NCBI GenBank assembly: GCA_947568835.1
Contig: OX387611.1
Span: forward strand, 11,508,350-11,572,349
Direction: 5' to 3'
Length of the DNA: 64,000 bases
Source of the DNA: Protonemura montana
Lineage: Eukaryota > Arthropoda > Insecta > Plecoptera > Nemouridae
In this document: positions 3,394-45,400 of the stretch, piece by piece
Position numbering within the stretch: the first letter of the stretch is position 1
How the letters are laid out: every line of letters begins with the position of its first letter
Program-made: the position numbers and the translations under genes
The notes under the pieces: model-generated
What the model was told of the DNA's origin: nothing
Database searches by the model: none
The model's input: only the letters and a program-made list of their open reading frames with translations

Positions 3394-3549
3394 AGTGCAG
3401 TGTTGATTAACTTTGGTGATCTCACGAGGACCGGTGTTTCCAACACGCCAAACCGTTCGGTGGTCATCCATCCAATACCTGACTCAGCGCAGTGTCGCTT
3501 AACTTCGTTGATCTCACGAGGACCGGTGTTTCCAACACGCCAAACCGTT
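3394..3549 (-). repeat. 5S rRNA-derived SINE head, tandem dimer, minus orientation
   Basis: Two adjacent copies on the minus strand of a segment resembling animal 5S rRNA: ACACCGGT, CTCGTGAGATCA, the box A-like AGTTAAGC(A/G)AC and the box C-like GGATGG(A/G)TGACC. These are the blocks of the 5S internal control region. The same head begins the full-length SINE at 43288-43725. The far 5' and 3' stems of real 5S RNA are absent, so this is not a 5S gene. Confidence 0.75.
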
Positions 3550-4041
3550 ACTTTATCAATATATAAAAATATTTTTATTTTAAGATAGATGGAAACTCGC
3601 GAGCTTTTTCTCTTGCTGCATTTTTGTCGTTGAATCAATAAATAATCCAAGTTCAAAACTGTGAACCATGTTCTTGAAAATAAAAATGTATGCACTCTAA
3701 GGTTAGGTTCGAGATAAGTTCTGAACCCCAAGTCTAGACAAGTTTATTTCGCTTTGCCCTCTAGTCTATCGGAGAGTATTTAAAGGACCACCTTCAATTG
3801 ACATTTAAAAATTACTGTATGTGAGGAACATCAATTAATTAAGGATCCCGTGAAAAAGAAAAATCTAAAAAAATGCGGTGCACATTTCTCGCACTTTTTC
3901 TTTTTGGCGCGAAGCTCCGTGCGTGACGTCAGAGATAGGGAGTCTGCAGCGGCAGTCTGCAAGACTGTAAGACGCGCGCTGCAGAGTCGGTAGGGTCGGC
4001 GCGCTCGCGATAGTGTCGCATTGTTTCATTGAAGTGTGGCA

Positions 4042-4317
4042 ATGGCTGGACCTTTCAGTTTAGACCCGAAGTTTACTCAGAGCGAGATTGAAGAAAATAT
4101 TTGCAAAAAAGCCGATGAAAGGAGACTACAAGAATCCTTTGTAGGGCGAGCAGGAAACACCTCGTGGTGTACGTGTGGTAACTGCGTTGCAATGGACAGC
4201 GACGTAGAATCGCATTGCTGTAAAGAGCCACCACAAATACGAGCGTTGTGCCAGAATGACGAGTGCATTACCGAGCACGGGTCATTCGACGTTATCACGA
4301 ATGACGTTATCCGTTGA
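4042..4317 (+). CDS. Truncated Cys-rich protein resembling the P2X7 intracellular 'ballast' domain
   Basis: This is a 91-residue ORF from ATG 4042 (a GTG lies in frame 6 bp upstream). The first half is charged and helical-looking. The second half contains W-C-T-CGNC, then a CC pair, then C...CITEH-x-x-F. This order of cysteines and His is the pattern I associate with the zinc-binding C-terminal ballast domain of P2X7 receptors (P2RX7_C family), also found in many stand-alone invertebrate proteins. Only the N-terminal part of the domain is present; the ORF stops at 4317, overlapping the end of the antisense THAP ORF by 36 bp. No P2X channel domain is present. It lies within a transposon, so it is probably element cargo rather than a host gene. 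Confidence 0.65.
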   Translation: MAGPFSLDPKFTQSEIEENICKKADERRLQESFVGRAGNTSWCTCGNCVAMDSDVESHCCKEPPQIRALCQNDECITEHGSFDVITNDVIR

Positions 4318-4719
4318 CGGCTCGTTCAAATAATCTGGCACATGGTCCAATAACTCCTCTTTCTCCTTATTGATCAAAAACATGGACTTCTGACGCTTTT
4401 TCGGTGGAGGACAAACATTCGAATGTGATTTACCAGTCATGAGCAACGACGGGACTGCCGTTTTCTTCAAAATGGGTCTGGATTTCACTGCATCGCCCAT
4501 CAATTGCAGTTTTAGTTTGTTGCGAATTTCAAAATCATCTTCTTGAAAATGTGCGGAACAAACACACGAGGATTTTCTTGGGACAAAATCTGTCCGATTA
4601 ACTTTATGCAACCATTGCCGATACATCCCAGGAAACTTATTCTTATCTGGAAATTTGTGGAAAGAAAATGGGCCTTTCGTGTTCGAACACTGATACACAA
4701 CACAATGATTGTTCACCAT
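4282..4719 (-). CDS. THAP-type zinc finger protein inside the TTAA element
   Basis: A 145-residue ORF on the minus strand with ATG at 4719. The N-terminal ~70 residues are a THAP domain: C-VVYQ-C (C-x4-C), SFHKFP, a W-L-x-K-x-NR segment, then C-SAHF (C-x2-H) and later an AVPS-type motif corresponding to the family AVPTIF box. THAP domains bind DNA through this C2CH zinc site and occur in P-element-like and Kolobok transposases and in host regulators. The tail after residue ~95 is short, basic then acidic, with no transposase core. Either the element encodes only the DNA-binding part or the catalytic region was deleted. The frame is intact. Confidence 0.88.
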   Translation of the reverse strand: MVNNHCVVYQCSNTKGPFSFHKFPDKNKFPGMYRQWLHKVNRTDFVPRKSSCVCSAHFQEDDFEIRNKLKLQLMGDAVKSRPILKKTAVPSLLMTGKSHSNVCPPPKKRQKSMFLINKEKEELLDHVPDYLNEPSTDNVIRDNVE

Positions 4720-5484
4720 TATTCTGCAGTTGGTTCACTTATAAAGTAGCAATCGTTAGACATAGCACACATAGACAAATATACGAGACAAATATAGTAA
4801 CGAGAAAAAACAATCCTACTCGCAAAGAGGTATCGCACGAACTAACTGGCAGCAGCCGCGGCAACCGGGCAGCGCTTGCTAGCCCTGCAGACTACCTATC
4901 TCTGACGTCACTAGCGGAGCTTCGCGCCAAAAAGAAAAAGCGCGAGAAAATATGCACCACATTTTTTAAGATTTTTCTTTTTTACGGGATCCTTAATTAA
5001 TTGATGTTCCTCACATACAGTAATTTTTAAATTTCAATTGAAGGTGTTCCTTTAAGATGCTTTCTTTCTGAGTTTCTTTGACGTTTTTACTGAAAACATC
5101 TTCTCAATTCTAGTCAAGAAGTCTTTACACTGTTCGAACTGCGTGCTATCATCTTAGAGCTGGCTGTCGCCCTTAGTCTTTACACTGGTAATTCTTACCA
5201 TATTTCTTGCTTTTTTCATCTTCTTTACCTTCTTTACAATTTTTCTTCAAAACTGGTACTAAAATCTTCTACTTTGAGTTGATATTTCTTAAAAAAAATG
5301 AGTACCTTACATCGCATTTTGAGGGAATTAACTAGTTGTAACTCACTGGATCCTTGACTTGATTGATAACTAGGAAATAGTTGTACTAATTGTATTTCAA
5401 AGTGACCGAACTGTTAAAATTGGGTTATATGGTACTGATTTTTAGACTCATGCCTACTTTATCTAAATTAGCACTTTGTTTTGA

Positions 5485-7776: not shown

Positions 7777-7962
7777 CGAACGGTTTGGCGTGTTGGAAAC
7801 ACCGGTTCTCATGAGATCACCGAAGTTAAGCAACACTACGCTGAGTCAGGTATTGGATGGGTGATCACCGAACGGTGTGGCGTGTTAGAAACACCCGTCC
7901 TCGTAAGATCACCGAAGTTAAGCAACACTGCGCTGAGTCAGGTATTGGAACGGGTGACCACC
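7777..7962 (+). repeat. 5S rRNA-derived SINE head, tandem dimer
   Basis: Two head-to-tail ~91 bp units, each starting GAACGGT(T/G)TGGCGTGTT and containing the 5S-like AAGTTAAGCAACAC and GTATTGGA...GGGTGACC blocks. It sits in the presumed intron after the orphan exon at 7633. Confidence 0.75.
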
Positions 7963-8346: not shown

Positions 8347-11300
8347 ATGAAGTACCAACTGATTCTTGCGGTATTGGTTTTTCTGGTGGTAGCTGGTAAG
8401 TCTTCTGTTTCAATTCTACCCTTTTTTTATTTAGTTTTGTGTTCGGAGTGGTTTTTAAGATAAAACAATTTACTAACCTTTCAAGCAACAGAGTGGAACC
8501 TTGTCTTCTTTTTCTAATATCACTTTTATTGTTATTTTTGATCAATTTCGCTCATTTTTTAAGGCTAGTCCTTTTTTTTTAAGTTTTGGAACCCCAAATG
8601 TTTTTGGAATTAAATCACCTTAAAAGATCGTTAAGAGAGAATTTTGAATTCATTTTTTTTAAATCGATTTTATTTTTCATCCATTACTTAAAACATGAAG
8701 ACAATATTTAATTTAAGGCACGTGACTTGATTGTGCCAAACCATTTAACTTCTTCTTCGTACTCCTTATCAATTGCCAGCTGTGTTTTACTATCATCCCG
8801 TCTCAAAAATTGATACCCAAACGGAGACTCGAACCCCGATCTCCACCTGTCGCGGAAGTTGCTCTAAACAATTGAGCTATTTGGACACTGGCTTTTTGAG
8901 ACGATTTCAAATTCTTGATTGATCAAATTCTCACGCGTCTCAAAAATCATATGCTAGAAGAACCAAGTTCCAGGGCCTGATCGGCCCTGAGTGAAGGAAA
9001 TTTTAGATTATATCTCTTCTTGTTTCCTTATGCGACCATTCTTTGCAAAATTCTATACTTTATGCTAAAATTGATCACATCGAATTCGAATGACATTCCC
9101 TTTCATTTTATAAAAATACGTTTGTTTCACAGTCAATACTCTTTAAGGATGAAATCTTATTAAAATTGCAAACGCTTGCAATGCGCGGGGTATTTTATTA
9201 TTAACAACACTGTAACCGTCTCAAAAATTGATGCCCAAACGCGGCCTCCAACCCCGATCTCCACCTTTCGCGGGTGTTGCTCTGAACCATTGAGCTACTT
9301 GGACACTGGCTTTTTGAAAGGATTTTAGTGTATTTGATGAGAATGACAGTTCTCCAAGGAGTAGAACCATGAGGCTGTGAATACTCACAGTCACTCTGAC
9401 ATTTGCTTACCTCCGCAGTGCATACCAACGTTACCATATTCGTAACCACGAAGAGCAAATTGTGTTCTTATTTTTCTAGATGTTGCCCAAGCGTGTTGCT
9501 CGTTCATAATTCATCCTCCGGTCGCAGCAGCACCACCACCGCCGCCACCACCGCCACCACCGCCACGAACTAAAACTACAACACCCATACCAGAGACAAC
9601 AACAACTAGACCAGCAGTATCTACACCTGGCATGGTAAGTACCGAGGTCTGACCTAGTATCTTTCAAAGTTTCACTGCTAATCACACGTAAACTTCTAAC
9701 GAATCTCCACCAACAGATAATTAAAGTGTAAGGTTTCGCTAATCAAAGTAAATTATTAATTATTTTGTGGTGTTTAACGACGCGTTGTTTTGACATCTTG
9801 CCTTGCGACACTGGTCTACTGGCGTCGGTGAATGAGTGGATGATGATGAGATGATGATGATGAACCTAACGTAGCCTAGAAAGGAGGAGGGGAAACTCGG
9901 TGCCGGCACGTAGCCTAATCCTGTCAAACAGCACCAAGGGAATCACCGGCTTAACGTCCCTTCCGAAGGACGGTACAACGCGAAAAACAGGATTCCTCCA
10001 CAAATCCATGCTGTCGAGAGGTTGATAAGCACGGCGAGTGGAGTTGCTGTACTAACTTTCATTGCTCAGCCTCTCTCCCAAACAGAACTGGTCATGTGTA
10101 TGATGGTCACCCATCCAATACCTGACCCAGCGCAGTGTTGCTTAACTTTCATCCCTCCAACCTCTCTCCCGAACAGAACTGGTCATGTGTATGATGGTCA
10201 CCCATCCAATACCTGACCCAGCGCAGTGTTGCTTAACTTCGGTGATCTAACGAGAACCGGTGTTTCCAAAACGCCAAACCGTTCGGTTAAGCAAAGTGAA
10301 CACGAAGCCAAGAGTTATGATTGGAAACAATGTTTAATTACGATGTAGTTGTTGTTCCGGCGGACCGGTAATAAAACTTGAAGGACAGAAGTCAACTGAC
10401 TCTCCTCAGGGTCGCAGCCCTTCTGGATCGTCTGCCCATCTACCTGTCCCGGTATGAGGGACAGGTTACTAACCGCACAAAGTGGCGGGAACGGTCTAGA
10501 GGGCATGGGAATATACAGAAATTCCAAATTGATGATACTTTTTAATGGGTGTAGTAATCTCTTTGTACGGGTTTTACCAACATTTCTAGTTGATTCTATT
10601 ATTTGATTGACTTTAAATAGAAACCTGAATTTCTTAAAAGCTTCCGAATTGGGAGAGCGGGAAGACTTGAAATAAATAGTGTGTGAACTGCGTAACGTTG
10701 CGTGCACCGGCCACTACACCTCTTAAAACCGGCGAACTGCTTTAAGTAATTAGCATAAACAGTGAAGTCAAAATAATTAACTGAGAGCCATGTTTTCTAG
10801 CTCACAATCAATTTTTTACCGTCAAACCCATGCTCACCTGTGTTTTTTTTTTCTTTATATTTACTTACTGAATCATTAATTTTTCTTCACTTCTCTTTCA
10901 TTACCTGAGTTCTTTCAAAGTTCTAAAGGTAAACAGGGCTGCACATTTGAATAGAGAGTTTAGACTTGGTCAGGATTTCCTTGGTGCAATTCTGTTCGGG
11001 AGAGAGGTTGTAGGGTTGAAGTTAAGAAACACTGCGCTGAGTCAGGTATTGGATGGGTGACCATTATACACATGACCAGTTCTGTTCGGGAGAGAGGTTG
11101 GCGGGATGAAAGTTAAGCAACACTGCGCTGAGTCAGGTATTGGATGGGTGACCATCATACACGTTATCAGTTCTGTTCGGGAGAGAGGTTGGAGGGTTGA
11201 AAGTTAAGCAACACTGCGCTGGGTCAGGTGTTGGATGGGTGACCATCATACACATGACCAGTTCTGTTTGAGAGAGAGGTTGGAGGGATGAAAGTTAGTA

Positions 11301-27400: not shown

Positions 27401-30400
27401 GGAAGAGAGGTTGGAAGGATGAAAGTTAAGCAACACTGGGCTGGATTAGGTATTGGATGTGTGACCATCATACACATGACCAGTTCCGTTCGGGAGAGAG
27501 GTTGGAGGGATAATAGTTAAGCAACACTGCGCTGGGTCAGGTATTGGATGTGTGACCATCATACACATGACCAGTTCCGTTCGGGAGAGAGGTTGGAGGG
27601 ATAATAGTTAAGCAACACTGGGCTGGATTAGGTATTGGATGTGTGACCATCATACACATGACCAGTTCTGTTCGGTAGAGAGGTTGGAAGGATGAAAGTT
27701 AGTACAGCAACTTCACTCGCCTTGCTTATCAACCTCTCGACAGCATGGATTTGTGGAGGAATCCTGTTGTTCGCGTTGTACCGTCCTTCGGAAGGGACGT
27801 TAAGCTGGTGGTCCCCTTGGTCTTCGACAGGAGTAGGCTACGTGTTGGCACCGGGTTTCCTTTCTTTTCTAGAGTAGTATATGTTCATCATCATCCACTC
27901 ATTCACCGACGCCATTAGACCAGTGCCGCATGACCAGATGTCAAAACAGTGCGACGTTAAACACCACAAATCATTCGATATCAAGTTCCTCGTGGGTGAC
28001 TTTTAGGTTATGCGAAATGCTGAAGCTGAACCCGAAGCCGGTGCTGTTGTCGATCGTGTTCTCGGCAAACATCATCAGCTCGTTGACTCCTGTCGGTGAC
28101 CCGCCTAACATCATCTTGAGCAGCCATCCAGACGTCAAAGCGGCGGTGAGTACGTTGTCCCAGTATTTTATTAAGAGAATTTTTCCGATTCTAAGACATG
28201 CTATGGGTTTACTTGTACCAATCTCTGAAATACCATGTTTACGGGAAAAAAATCTGAAAAAAAAACGTGTGGTTGCTATCGCCCATTTTCTCTTTGGCGG
28301 CTTTCTGTGGTCTCTCCACCAATACTTTCTTTGAATGTTGACTTCGATGTCATCATAGTACCTTATAGCCAAAGTAGCTATCACAGTATCTCATTTTCCT
28401 GCAATCTTAGAACAACCGTATCTCACCATCTCACCATCTCACCATCTCATCATCTCAACATCTCACCATCTCAGCATCTCAGCATCTCAGCATCTCAGCA
28501 TCTCACCATCTCACCATCTCACCATCTCATCATCTCACCATCTCACCATCTCAGCATCTCAGCATCTCAGCATCTCACCATCTCACCATCTCACCATCTC
28601 ACCATCTCACCATCTCACCATCTCACCATCTCACCATCTCACCATCTCACCATCTCACCATCTCACCATCTCACCATCTCACCATCTCACCATCTCACCA
28701 TCTCACCATCTCAGCATCTCACCATCTCACCATCTCAGCATCTCACCATCTCACCATCTCACCATCTCACCATCTCAGCATCTCACCATCTCACCATCTC
28801 AGCATCTCACCATCTCACCATCTCACCATCTCACCATCTCACCATCTCACCATCTCACCATCTCGGCATCTCACCATCTCACCATCTCAGCATCTCAGCA
28901 TCTCAGCATCTCAGCATCTCAGCATCTCAGCATCTCACCATCTCACCATCTCAGCATCTCACCATCTCACCATCTCACCATCTCACCATCTCAGCATCTC
29001 ACCATCTCACCATCTCAGCATCTCAGCATCTCAGCATCTCAGCATCTCAACATCTCAGCATCTCAGCATCTCACCATCTCACCATCTCACCATCTCACCA
29101 TCTCACCATCTCACCATCTCACCATCTCACCATCTCACCATCTCACCATCTCAGCATCTCAGCATCTCAGCATCTCAGCATCTCACCATCTCACCATCTC
29201 ACCATCTCACCATCTCAGCATCTCAGCATCTCAGCATCTCACCATCTCACCATCTCACCATCTCACCATCTCACCATCTCAGCATCTCACCATCTCACCA
29301 TCTCACCATCTCACCATCTCACCATCTCACCATCTCACCATCTCACCATCTCACCATCTCAGCATCTCACCATCTCAGCATCTCACCATCTCACCATCTC
29401 AGCATCTCACCATCTCACCATCTCACCATCTCACCATCTCACCATCTCACCATCTCACCATCTCAGCATCTCAGCATCTCACCATCTCACCATCTCACCA
29501 TCTCAGCATCTCACCATCTCACCATCTCAGCATCTCAGCATCTCACCATCTCAGCATCTCAGCATCTGACCATCTCACCATCTCACCATCTCACCTGCAG
29601 TGTCCCAGTTTCTCAGCTTATGTGTCAACCATTGGTTTCCATTTTAAACGATCAAAACTGCTGCATTTTGTATTCTTATTATTATAAAAAAACGCAACTA
29701 CTCTCTCAAAAATTTCTTTCAAAATTTTTGAAAAAAAATTTGAGTTTAAAAATTGATCTCAAAAATTTAGATCAGATTTCACATTATAAAACGCATTCAA
29801 CGAATAATTGTAGTTATTCGAGATTGACAGGTTGTGACGTAATATAGCGTCACTAGAATCAGAGTGACTGTGAGTATTCACATCCTCATGGTTCTACTCC
29901 TTGGAGATCTGTCATTCTCATCTAATACACTAAAATCATTTCAGAAAGCCAGTGTCCAAGTAGCTCAATGGTTCAGAGCATCACACGCGATAGGTGGAGA
30001 TCGGGGTTCAAGTCCCCGTTCGGGAAACATTTTTTGAGAGGTTATTAGTGTTCCTAATAATAAAATACCCCGCTCATTGCAAGCGTTTTGCAATTGTAAT
30101 CAGATTTCACTGATTATTGTTACATTACATTGAGTGTTTTGCCATTACATTGTTATGGCAATGGACCATCTGGCTCTGGTCTAATGGCGCAGGTGAACGA
30201 GTAGTGATTATGATGATTATGCATCTAACATTCACTGGATAGGAGTATGGAACCAGCTATTATTTTTTTCAATATTTTTATTTATTTATTTATTCTCACA
30301 CTTAGGAATTGTACATGTTCTATGATTGCCGGTTGTATGGTGTCTGGTTAAAGCGTTGAGTGTAGGTTATAGGTAGAGTTTCAACGTCAATGTTACAGTC

Positions 30401-42400: not shown

Positions 42401-45400
42401 TGCACTGGGACAGTCACATGTCCAGTCGAACACACGAAAGTTGCACTGGGATAGAGTCACATGCCCAGTCGAACACGTGAAAGTTGCACTGGGGCAGAGT
42501 CACATGCCCAGTCGAACACGTGAAAGTTGCACTGGGACAGAGTCACATGCCCAGTCGAACACGTGAAAGTTGCACTGGAGCAGAGTCACATGCCCAGTCA
42601 AACACGTGAAAGTTGCACTGAGGCAGAGTCACATGCCCAGTCGAACACGTGAAAGTTGAACTGGGGCAGAGTCACATGCCCAGTCGAACACGTGAAATTT
42701 GCACTGGGATAGAGTCACATGTCCAGTCGAACACACGAAAGTTGCACTGGGATAGAGTCACATTCCCAGTCGAACACGTGAAAGTTGCACTGGGGCAGAG
42801 TCACATGCCCAGTCGAACACGTGAAAGTTGAACTGGGACAGAGTCACATGTCCAGTTGAACACGTGAAAGTTGCACTGGGATAGAGTCACATTCCCAGTC
42901 TAACGCGCAGATCGGTCCAGTCAATACCTGGAGCGCATCGGGGCAGCCAACCGATTACTCCCTGTGGTGTTGCTGTTTATATAGCACTGGTCTAATAACT
43001 GGCTATTGATTAATGACAAGCTGATGATGAAGCTAGTCTGCAGGGAGCGCGACTACTAGCACGGTGCGATAACTTAAGTTACAACGCTTCTTGCCACTAC
43101 TAGATTACCCTTACTACCCAACTACCTGTCTAGATGGAGGTCCTGGATGGGTTACCTATCAATTCAGGTATTATTTCCGTTTGTATGTACTCGACGTACG
43201 CCTGGGTTTTTAGGCAATCCGCGTGGCATAACCGTAACATAAATTGCCTACCACTTCAGGCATTGTTCCTGTAGGTGACTTGGTATCATTATTATTATTT
43301 GTGGTGTTTAACGACGCACTGTTTTGACAACTGGCCCTGCGGCACTGGTCTAATGGCGTCGGTGAATGAGTGGATGATGATGAGGATGATGATGCACCTA
43401 ACCTAGCCGAGAAGGGAGGAGGGGAAACCCGGTGCCGGCACGTAGCCTACTCCTGTCGAAAAGCACCAAGGGGACCACCGGCTTCACGTCCCTTCCGAAG
43501 GACGGTACAACTCGAACAGCAGGATTCCTCCACAAATCCATGCTGTCGAGAGGTTGATAAGCAAGGCGAATGAAGTTGCTGTACTAACTTTCATCCCTCC
43601 AACCTCTCTCCCAAACAGATTGGTCATGTGTATAATGGTCACCCATTCAATACCTGACTCAGCGCAGTGTTGTTTAACTTCGGTGATCCAACGAGAACCG
43701 GTGTTTCCAACATGCCAAACCGTTCGGTGACTTGGTATCGTATTGATGGGTTGTTTTACACAATCTCCTCGGGTTCTTACTAATTGTTGTCGACTGTTTG
43801 TTACCTAGGGAATGGTACTCTGATTGCGTCTGCTGCCAACGTGGTGTGTACGGGGGTTGCTGAACAACACGGCTACAAGATCACAATGTGGCAGTTCTCA
43901 AAGTAGGTCACCGCTTTGCACTCTTGATCCTTAAAACTGGCGCAAGTCAAGACACTAAGAAGTTTTTTTTTACATTAGGTTTTTTAAGGTTAGTTTACGG
44001 ATTCTATTTAATGAATTTTGCCAAATAAAATGGTTAGAAAAGTTTTGAATTCTGGGTTTAAATTGCTACACGAAACTTTAATGTAAAGGAGCCTCGAAAA
44101 TTACTGACTGAACCAAACAAAATTTAAGCAGGCCAGAAATAAAGTTACCGTCATTTCGAATGCTAAACATTTTTTTGTTTGTTTTTTTTAGCTTAAACTT
44201 CTTGCAATTGAGGCGTACTTGTGCTCGATACATTTTAACCATCAGATTGATACAAAAGTATCAAATATCTGTGCAAGCTTTGTCTGTGATAGTCTTTGCC
44301 TCGTAAGGATGGAATATCTGTGCAAGCTTTATCTGTGCTAGTCTTTGCCTCATAAGGATGGAATATCTGTGCAAGCTGTATCTGTGTTAGTCTTTGCCTC
44401 ATAAGGATGGAATATCTGTGCAAGCTTTATCTGTGCTAGTCTTTGCCTCATAAGGATGGAATATCTGTGCAAGCTGTATCTGTGTTAGTCTTTGCCTCAT
44501 AAGGATGGAATATCTGTGCAAGCTTTATCTGTGATAGTCTTTGCCTCATAAGGATGGAATATCTGTGCAAGCTTTATCTGTGGTAGTCTTTGCCTCATAA
44601 GGATGGAATATCTGTGCAAGCTTTATCTGTGGTAGTCTTTGCCTCATAAGGATGGAATATCTGTGCAATCTTTATCCGTGGTAGTCTTTGCCCACAAGGA
44701 TGAAATATCTGTGCAAGCTTTATATGTAGTAGTCTTTGCCTCATAAGGATGGAATATCTGTGCAAGCTTTATCTGTGGTAGTCTTTGCCTCATAAGGATG
44801 GAATATCTGTGCAAGCTTTATCTGTGCTAGTCTTTGCCTCATAAGGATGGAATATCTGTGCAAGCTTTATCTGTGCTAGTCTTTGCTTCATAAGGATGGA
44901 ATATCTGTGCAAGCTTCATCTGTGGTAGTCTTTGCTCCATAAGGATGGAATATCTGTGCAAGCTTTATCTGTGGTAGTCTTTGCCTCATAAGGATGGAAT
45001 ATCTATGCAAGCTTTATCTGTGTTAGTCTTTGCCTCATAAGGATGGAATATCTGTGCAAGCTTTATCTGTGGTAGTCTTTGCCTCATAAGGATGGAATAT
45101 CTATGCAAGCTTTATCTGTGTTAGTCTTTGCCTCATAAGGATGGAATATCTGTGCAAGCTTTATCTGTGGTAGTCTTTGCCTCATAAGGATGGAATATCT
45201 GTGCAAGCTTTATCTGTGGCAGTCTTTGCCTCATAAGGATGGAATATCTATGCAAGCTTTATCTGTGCTAGTCTTTGCCTCACAAGGATGAAATATCTGT
45301 GCAAGCTTTATATGTAGTAGTCTTTGCCTCATAAGAATGGAATATCTGTGCAAGCTTTTGCCCCACATGGATACACCTGTGTAAGCTTTTGCACCAGTGT

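Follow-up and report, generated by a model that had tools for sequence, protein, structure and literature searches.

A shortened copy of a young and probably Kol0-type Kolobok transposon, with genes for a THAP transposase and a P2X7 ballast-like protein, in an insect genome

The closest described systems are the Kolobok transposons of the Kol0 type, the KolX protein of which is reported to be similar to residues 476-595 of the P2X7 receptor, with seven conserved cysteines and the ballast fold (Kojima & Bao 2022; PMC9587614). In the available text of the same paper, P2X7 is derived from a P2X4-like gene that was fused with KolX. The ballast domain had been followed across animals by Rump et al. 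(2020; PMC7016195), and the accessible part of that study leaves the link with transposons unnoticed and describes the domain as perhaps absent from flies, bees, and beetles. Furthermore, internally deleted copies of a Kolobok transposon are mobilised in trans in Xenopus, according to the available sections of another report (PMC6004289).

The locus considered here lies in a stretch of 64,000 nucleotides (the window), in which a 1268-bp element (positions 3784-5051) was read directly from the sequence. Very probably, this element is non-autonomous and arose by internal deletion from a young Kolobok of the Kol0 type, and its parent carries convergent genes for a THAP-DDE transposase and KolX. 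Its gene content and termini fit the Kol0 placement, and KolX, which is related to the C-terminal P2X7 domain, is a putative zinc-ballast protein. TTAA target site duplications were found, in the sequence and by copy comparison, at 3780-3783 on the left and at 5052-5055 on the right. The terminal inverted repeats of 170 bp (left, 3784-3953, plus strand, starting with 5'-AGGACCACC; right, 4882-5051, minus strand, ending with GGTGTTCCT-3') have boundaries in common with other copies and are 92.4% identical over 171 columns. Both the TTAA flanks and the inverted ends had been recognized in the initial annotation, in which the latter were estimated at about 180 bp. Between these ends, the minus strand contains a truncated transposase ORF of 145 amino acids (4282-4719), consisting of a THAP DNA-binding domain (PF05485, E 3.6e-15 in Pfam) and a linker; its first 136 amino acids match the intact transposase and the DDE core is absent. 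The plus strand contains a truncated KolX ORF (4042-4317; P2RX7_C or ballast domain) of 91 amino acids from its ATG, of which amino acids 1-86 correspond to the intact protein of 180 amino acids and the remainder stems from the deletion junction. Both ORFs were delimited with the ORF list, Pfam, and copy comparison, and agree with the minus-strand THAP frame and the plus-strand cysteine-rich frame proposed earlier, the intact version of the latter being a P2RX7_C protein. The cut version itself matched P2RX7_C (PF20478) with an E value of 7.5e-4 and 19.9 bits, which is below the curated cut-off of 23.5 bits, and its P2X7 match in the PDB (E 0.1) was outranked by an unrelated protein (E 0.095).

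Compared with its parent, the window copy consists of the element up to position 518, a 10-nt filler at the junction (4302-4311, a copy of the neighbouring GACGTTATC, as revealed by copy comparison), and the element from position 2688 onwards, all sequence in between being absent. The convergent arrangement with a 36-bp overlap of both ORFs, as previously claimed, is thus present in the window copy, but the overlap is an artefact of the internal deletion, as the two genes converge with their ends 107 bp apart in the full-length copies. An overlap by design between the convergent genes was therefore ruled out. If the window copy has any products, these would be a truncated KolX and a protein limited to the THAP part, and the copy would depend for its mobility solely on the activity of others. 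Elsewhere, the window contained four 5S-rRNA-like matches (3437-3553, 7786-7881, 10167-10287, and 43610-43727), one of them at about 230 bp from the element, which are likely 5S-derived repeats. At 28229-29847, there was a long tandem repeat, strongly skewed towards C over G, in which the open frames overlap and read as repeated units.

With the window element as query, at least 23 places were retrieved from the host genome (258 Mb) and all of these were compared with the longest form; the copy counts of this family (family A) are lower bounds, as the best candidates were scored. The left inverted end alone, used as query, yielded no additional place among the best 40 of 47 candidates. The places comprised four full-length copies (3427 bp, one of them 3433 bp), 17 copies that were deleted but two-ended, and two single-ended copies. 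All 21 two-ended copies had TTAA on both sides, which is the target site of Kolobok elements. They represent 20 distinct sites, since two full-length copies (L009 and L012) have common flanking DNA, reflecting either a duplicated chromosome segment or one place that was assembled twice. Sixteen of the 21 two-ended copies were identical in their last 740 bp, over which the mean divergence was 0.06%, indicating very recent movement of the family. In addition, identical deletion junctions were encountered at different sites (397/2527 at three sites, 773/2649 at three, and 772/2639 at two), indicating that the deleted copies, too, have been moved. One copy (L019, 375-2293) has a right end on either side, the two in inverted order, and is flanked by TTAA; a pair of right ends thus seems sufficient for insertion.

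A genome-wide search for P2RX7_C gave 24 matches, namely 13 in family A, ten in a family B, and one in a family C, and the KolX and transposase genes of families B and C converge in the same layout as those of family A. Family B (L043-L049, L051, L052, and L060, on contigs C4, C12, C28, C11, C14, C15, C1, C2, C13, and C16) is found on nine large contigs, 31-106 kb away from their ends, as well as on a contig of 65 kb. These copies are near-identical, via large duplications near contig ends. The transposase of family B is in pieces and its KolX is stop-free in seven of the ten copies. Domestication of KolX in this subtelomeric family is unsupported, because stops occur in three of the ten copies and because KolX (9 of 600) and the transposase pieces (14 of 866) have about equal proportions of variable sites. 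Family C (L080) is 3535 bp long and has TTAA ends, an open THAP transposase frame of 723 amino acids, and KolX on the opposite strand. All three of its deletion copies that were read (L081, L082, and L083) keep the long THAP frame and the KolX start; the first of these (L081:1987-3945) has TTCA, not TTAA, on both sides. Finally, a family D (L079:125-3746; three matching places) has TTAA ends and an open THAP transposase frame of 733 amino acids, its right boundary being confirmed by another copy and its left boundary following from the matching ends. KolX was looked for in this family D element and none was found, indicating that KolX is not required by every Kolobok of this genome. Family D is a natural comparison as to whether KolX is needed.

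The way in which these deletions are distributed may be read as a sign that deletion copies, the window copy included, were retained as THAP-only repressor genes and are more than debris, as is the case for the KP repressor of the P element, which, according to the available part of a report on P elements (PMC7776569), sets the precedent. This reading is unlikely. In its favour, the THAP codons were kept in all 21 two-ended copies of family A, and each of the 11 distinct junctions leaves more of the transposase side than of the KolX side. If a simple uniform model is assumed, THAP would be retained by chance with a probability of 0.005 and the asymmetry would arise with one of 0.0004; this null model is crude, and the junctions 772/2639 and 694/2639 are perhaps non-independent. 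The long THAP frame retained by the three family C deletion copies points in the same direction. However, a need in cis for right-end sequence would give the same pattern, and the copy built of right ends only was indeed inserted at a TTAA site. Under the preferred reading, a non-autonomous Kolobok copy that is moved by its relatives, Kolobok and P element biology suggest that the THAP domain would bind the long inverted ends and that the DDE core would cut and join at TTAA, the transposase presumably being provided in trans by the full-length copies.

The intact plus-strand KolX of 180 amino acids matched PF20478 with an E value of 5.2e-18 and 66.1 bits, well above the 23.5-bit cut-off, and covered positions 64-191 of the 192 positions of the P2RX7_C profile. 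Against the PDB, it retrieved four P2X7 sequences (best E 3.9e-7, human residues 473-593) and one unrelated chain (E 0.31), whereas a profile of KolX from families A, B, and C retrieved P2X7 only, up to an E value of 1 (4/4 distinct sequences, best E 9.6e-11). KolX was intact in all four full-length copies of family A that were found, indicating that the cysteine-rich ORF is part of the element. Hence, both the profile search and the search for longer relatives that had been proposed in the initial annotation turned out in favour of its view of this ORF. Between families A, B, and C, KolX showed 34-41% identity over aligned codons, with differences mostly at third codon positions and saturated dS. 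The seven cysteines, which mark the second gene of Kol0 elements, were invariant in the three families, apart from one that is missing in a single family B copy (L060). Outside the host, two scans of viral contigs (viral_contigs) gave two and 25 pattern-matched stretches and no relative of KolX, a tblastn search against 50,697 phage records gave no match, and a comparison with PHROGs gave a single weak match (E 0.045). A search for a P2X channel gene in the host genome gave no match and control queries were equally silent.

KolX, retained by three families and lacking in one, most likely has an assisting or regulating role in transposition, and it may be seen as an accessory protein that is useful and not indispensable. 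A more specific and quite improbable proposal is that KolX serves the Kolobok transpososome as a subunit that binds guanine nucleotides and that P2X7 has inherited its GDP site from a former role in the control of transposition. In that case, the nucleotide-binding part of Kol0 would be a separate protein, in contrast to the domain built into the P element transposase. The latter, a THAP-DDE enzyme as well, needs GTP for end pairing and target joining, which acts through a binding domain in the enzyme (PMC7776569, available part), and the P2X7 ballast binds GDP and GTP for no known reason, as far as the available text goes (PMC9859053). Concerning the five GDP contacts of rat P2X7, a reading of the alignment revealed equivalents of R546 and R578 in families A, B, and C and of H547 in families A and B, which speaks for the proposal, whereas R574 and K583 have an equivalent in none of them and family D lives without KolX. 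Among the matches listed, there was no open-access paper linking P2X7, the ballast, transposase, and GTP.

On the minus strand, the full-length copies contain a transposase frame of 583 amino acids with THAP and weak Mutator/MULE matches in Pfam; this first exon is stop-free in three of the four copies and is followed, after an intron of 117 bp, by a second exon, giving a spliced product of 689 amino acids. This product aligns unbroken with the intronless, single-exon transposases of families C and D, the splice fitting exactly. Blocks common to the three transposases are GDGQ, TDRHRG, DVWH, a stretch rich in H and C, and LESYHN. The alignment thus contains the C/DxxH signature and later zinc finger of a Kolobok DDE transposase, with motifs that were placed by eye and catalytic residues that are putative. 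The THAP domain, a further Kolobok character, was found in the transposases of family A (PF05485, E 3.8e-14), family D (1.4e-9), and family C (3.9e-15). Similarly, the termini of these three families are AGG...CCT, in line with the 5'-RR...YY-3' termini of Kolobok (PMC9587614) and the AGG termini described in Xenopus (PMC6004289). An assignment to piggyBac, with its TTAA target, or to the THAP elements of the P type instead of Kolobok is highly improbable. Although TTAA is common to piggyBac elements and THAP is common to P elements, the Pfam scans returned neither piggyBac nor P profiles and gave the weak Mutator/MULE matches instead, and the 5'-AGG termini and the DVWH signature argue against it. 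The KolX-like proteins of piggyBac reportedly lack most of the seven cysteines, all of which are present here. As to P elements, their target site duplications are 8 bp long, according to the available part of the report mentioned above (PMC7776569). Lastly, it is extremely unlikely that the cysteine-rich ORF entered a THAP element from the host, either as a chance insertion or as a piece of a P2X7-like host gene. The cut and sub-threshold ORF of the window might suggest it, but this ORF is intact and at the same position in the four full-length copies, by which a chance ORF or host-gene fragment was ruled out, and the same convergent position is seen in two families with such divergent KolX sequences.

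The suggestion of the initial annotation that mobile elements may carry the P2X7 ballast domain, which could account for its fusion to a channel gene, is right and is supported by these data; it is not new, having been published in 2022 (PMC9587614, available text). What is new is a very young KolX-bearing insect family in which the THAP end has survived in every deletion copy. An independent host thereby confirms that Kolobok carries the ballast domain as a separate gene, with three families in the same layout, and a family with mostly identical copies is a practical system for probing the role of KolX. If the host is a holometabolous insect, its KolX also bears on the remark of Rump et al. 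concerning such insects. As to the host, (CCTAA)n, a telomere of the TTAGG type, was found at one of the six contig ends read, and the insect odorant-receptor family had at least 129 matches in the genome (127 of 362 candidates scored), which identifies the host as an insect.

In comparison with known systems, the window copy resembles KP, as described in the available part of the P element report (PMC7776569), in that an internal deletion leaves a truncated transposase bearing THAP; KP belongs to another superfamily (with 8-bp duplications) and is a demonstrated repressor, whereas such a role would be a guess here. Family A shares THAP and DDE domains, AGG termini, TTAA, and internally deleted copies with the Xenopus Kolobok and T2-MITEs, as far as the latter are covered by the available sections, which make no mention of P2X (PMC6004289), and differs from them in that its deletion copies occur in small numbers and are long (1.1-1.9 kb). 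KolX and the P2X7 ballast (PF20478) have the WCxCGxC, CC, CI, and PSC cysteine blocks and the RH-AY and IR-x-FP blocks in common, the match extending over the full length of the intact protein, whereas KolX is a free-standing transposon protein without the channel part. Finally, although family A differs from the described Kol0 elements in its inverted ends of about 170 bp, the intron of its transposase, and the deletion in the window copy, and occurs in an insect, whereas the Kol0 hosts mentioned in the available text are vertebrates, annelids, cnidarians, and sponges, it shares with Kol0 elements of the Kolobok-1_XT type the TTAA target, the 5'-RR/YY-3' termini, the DxxH DDE transposase, and KolX (PMC9587614).
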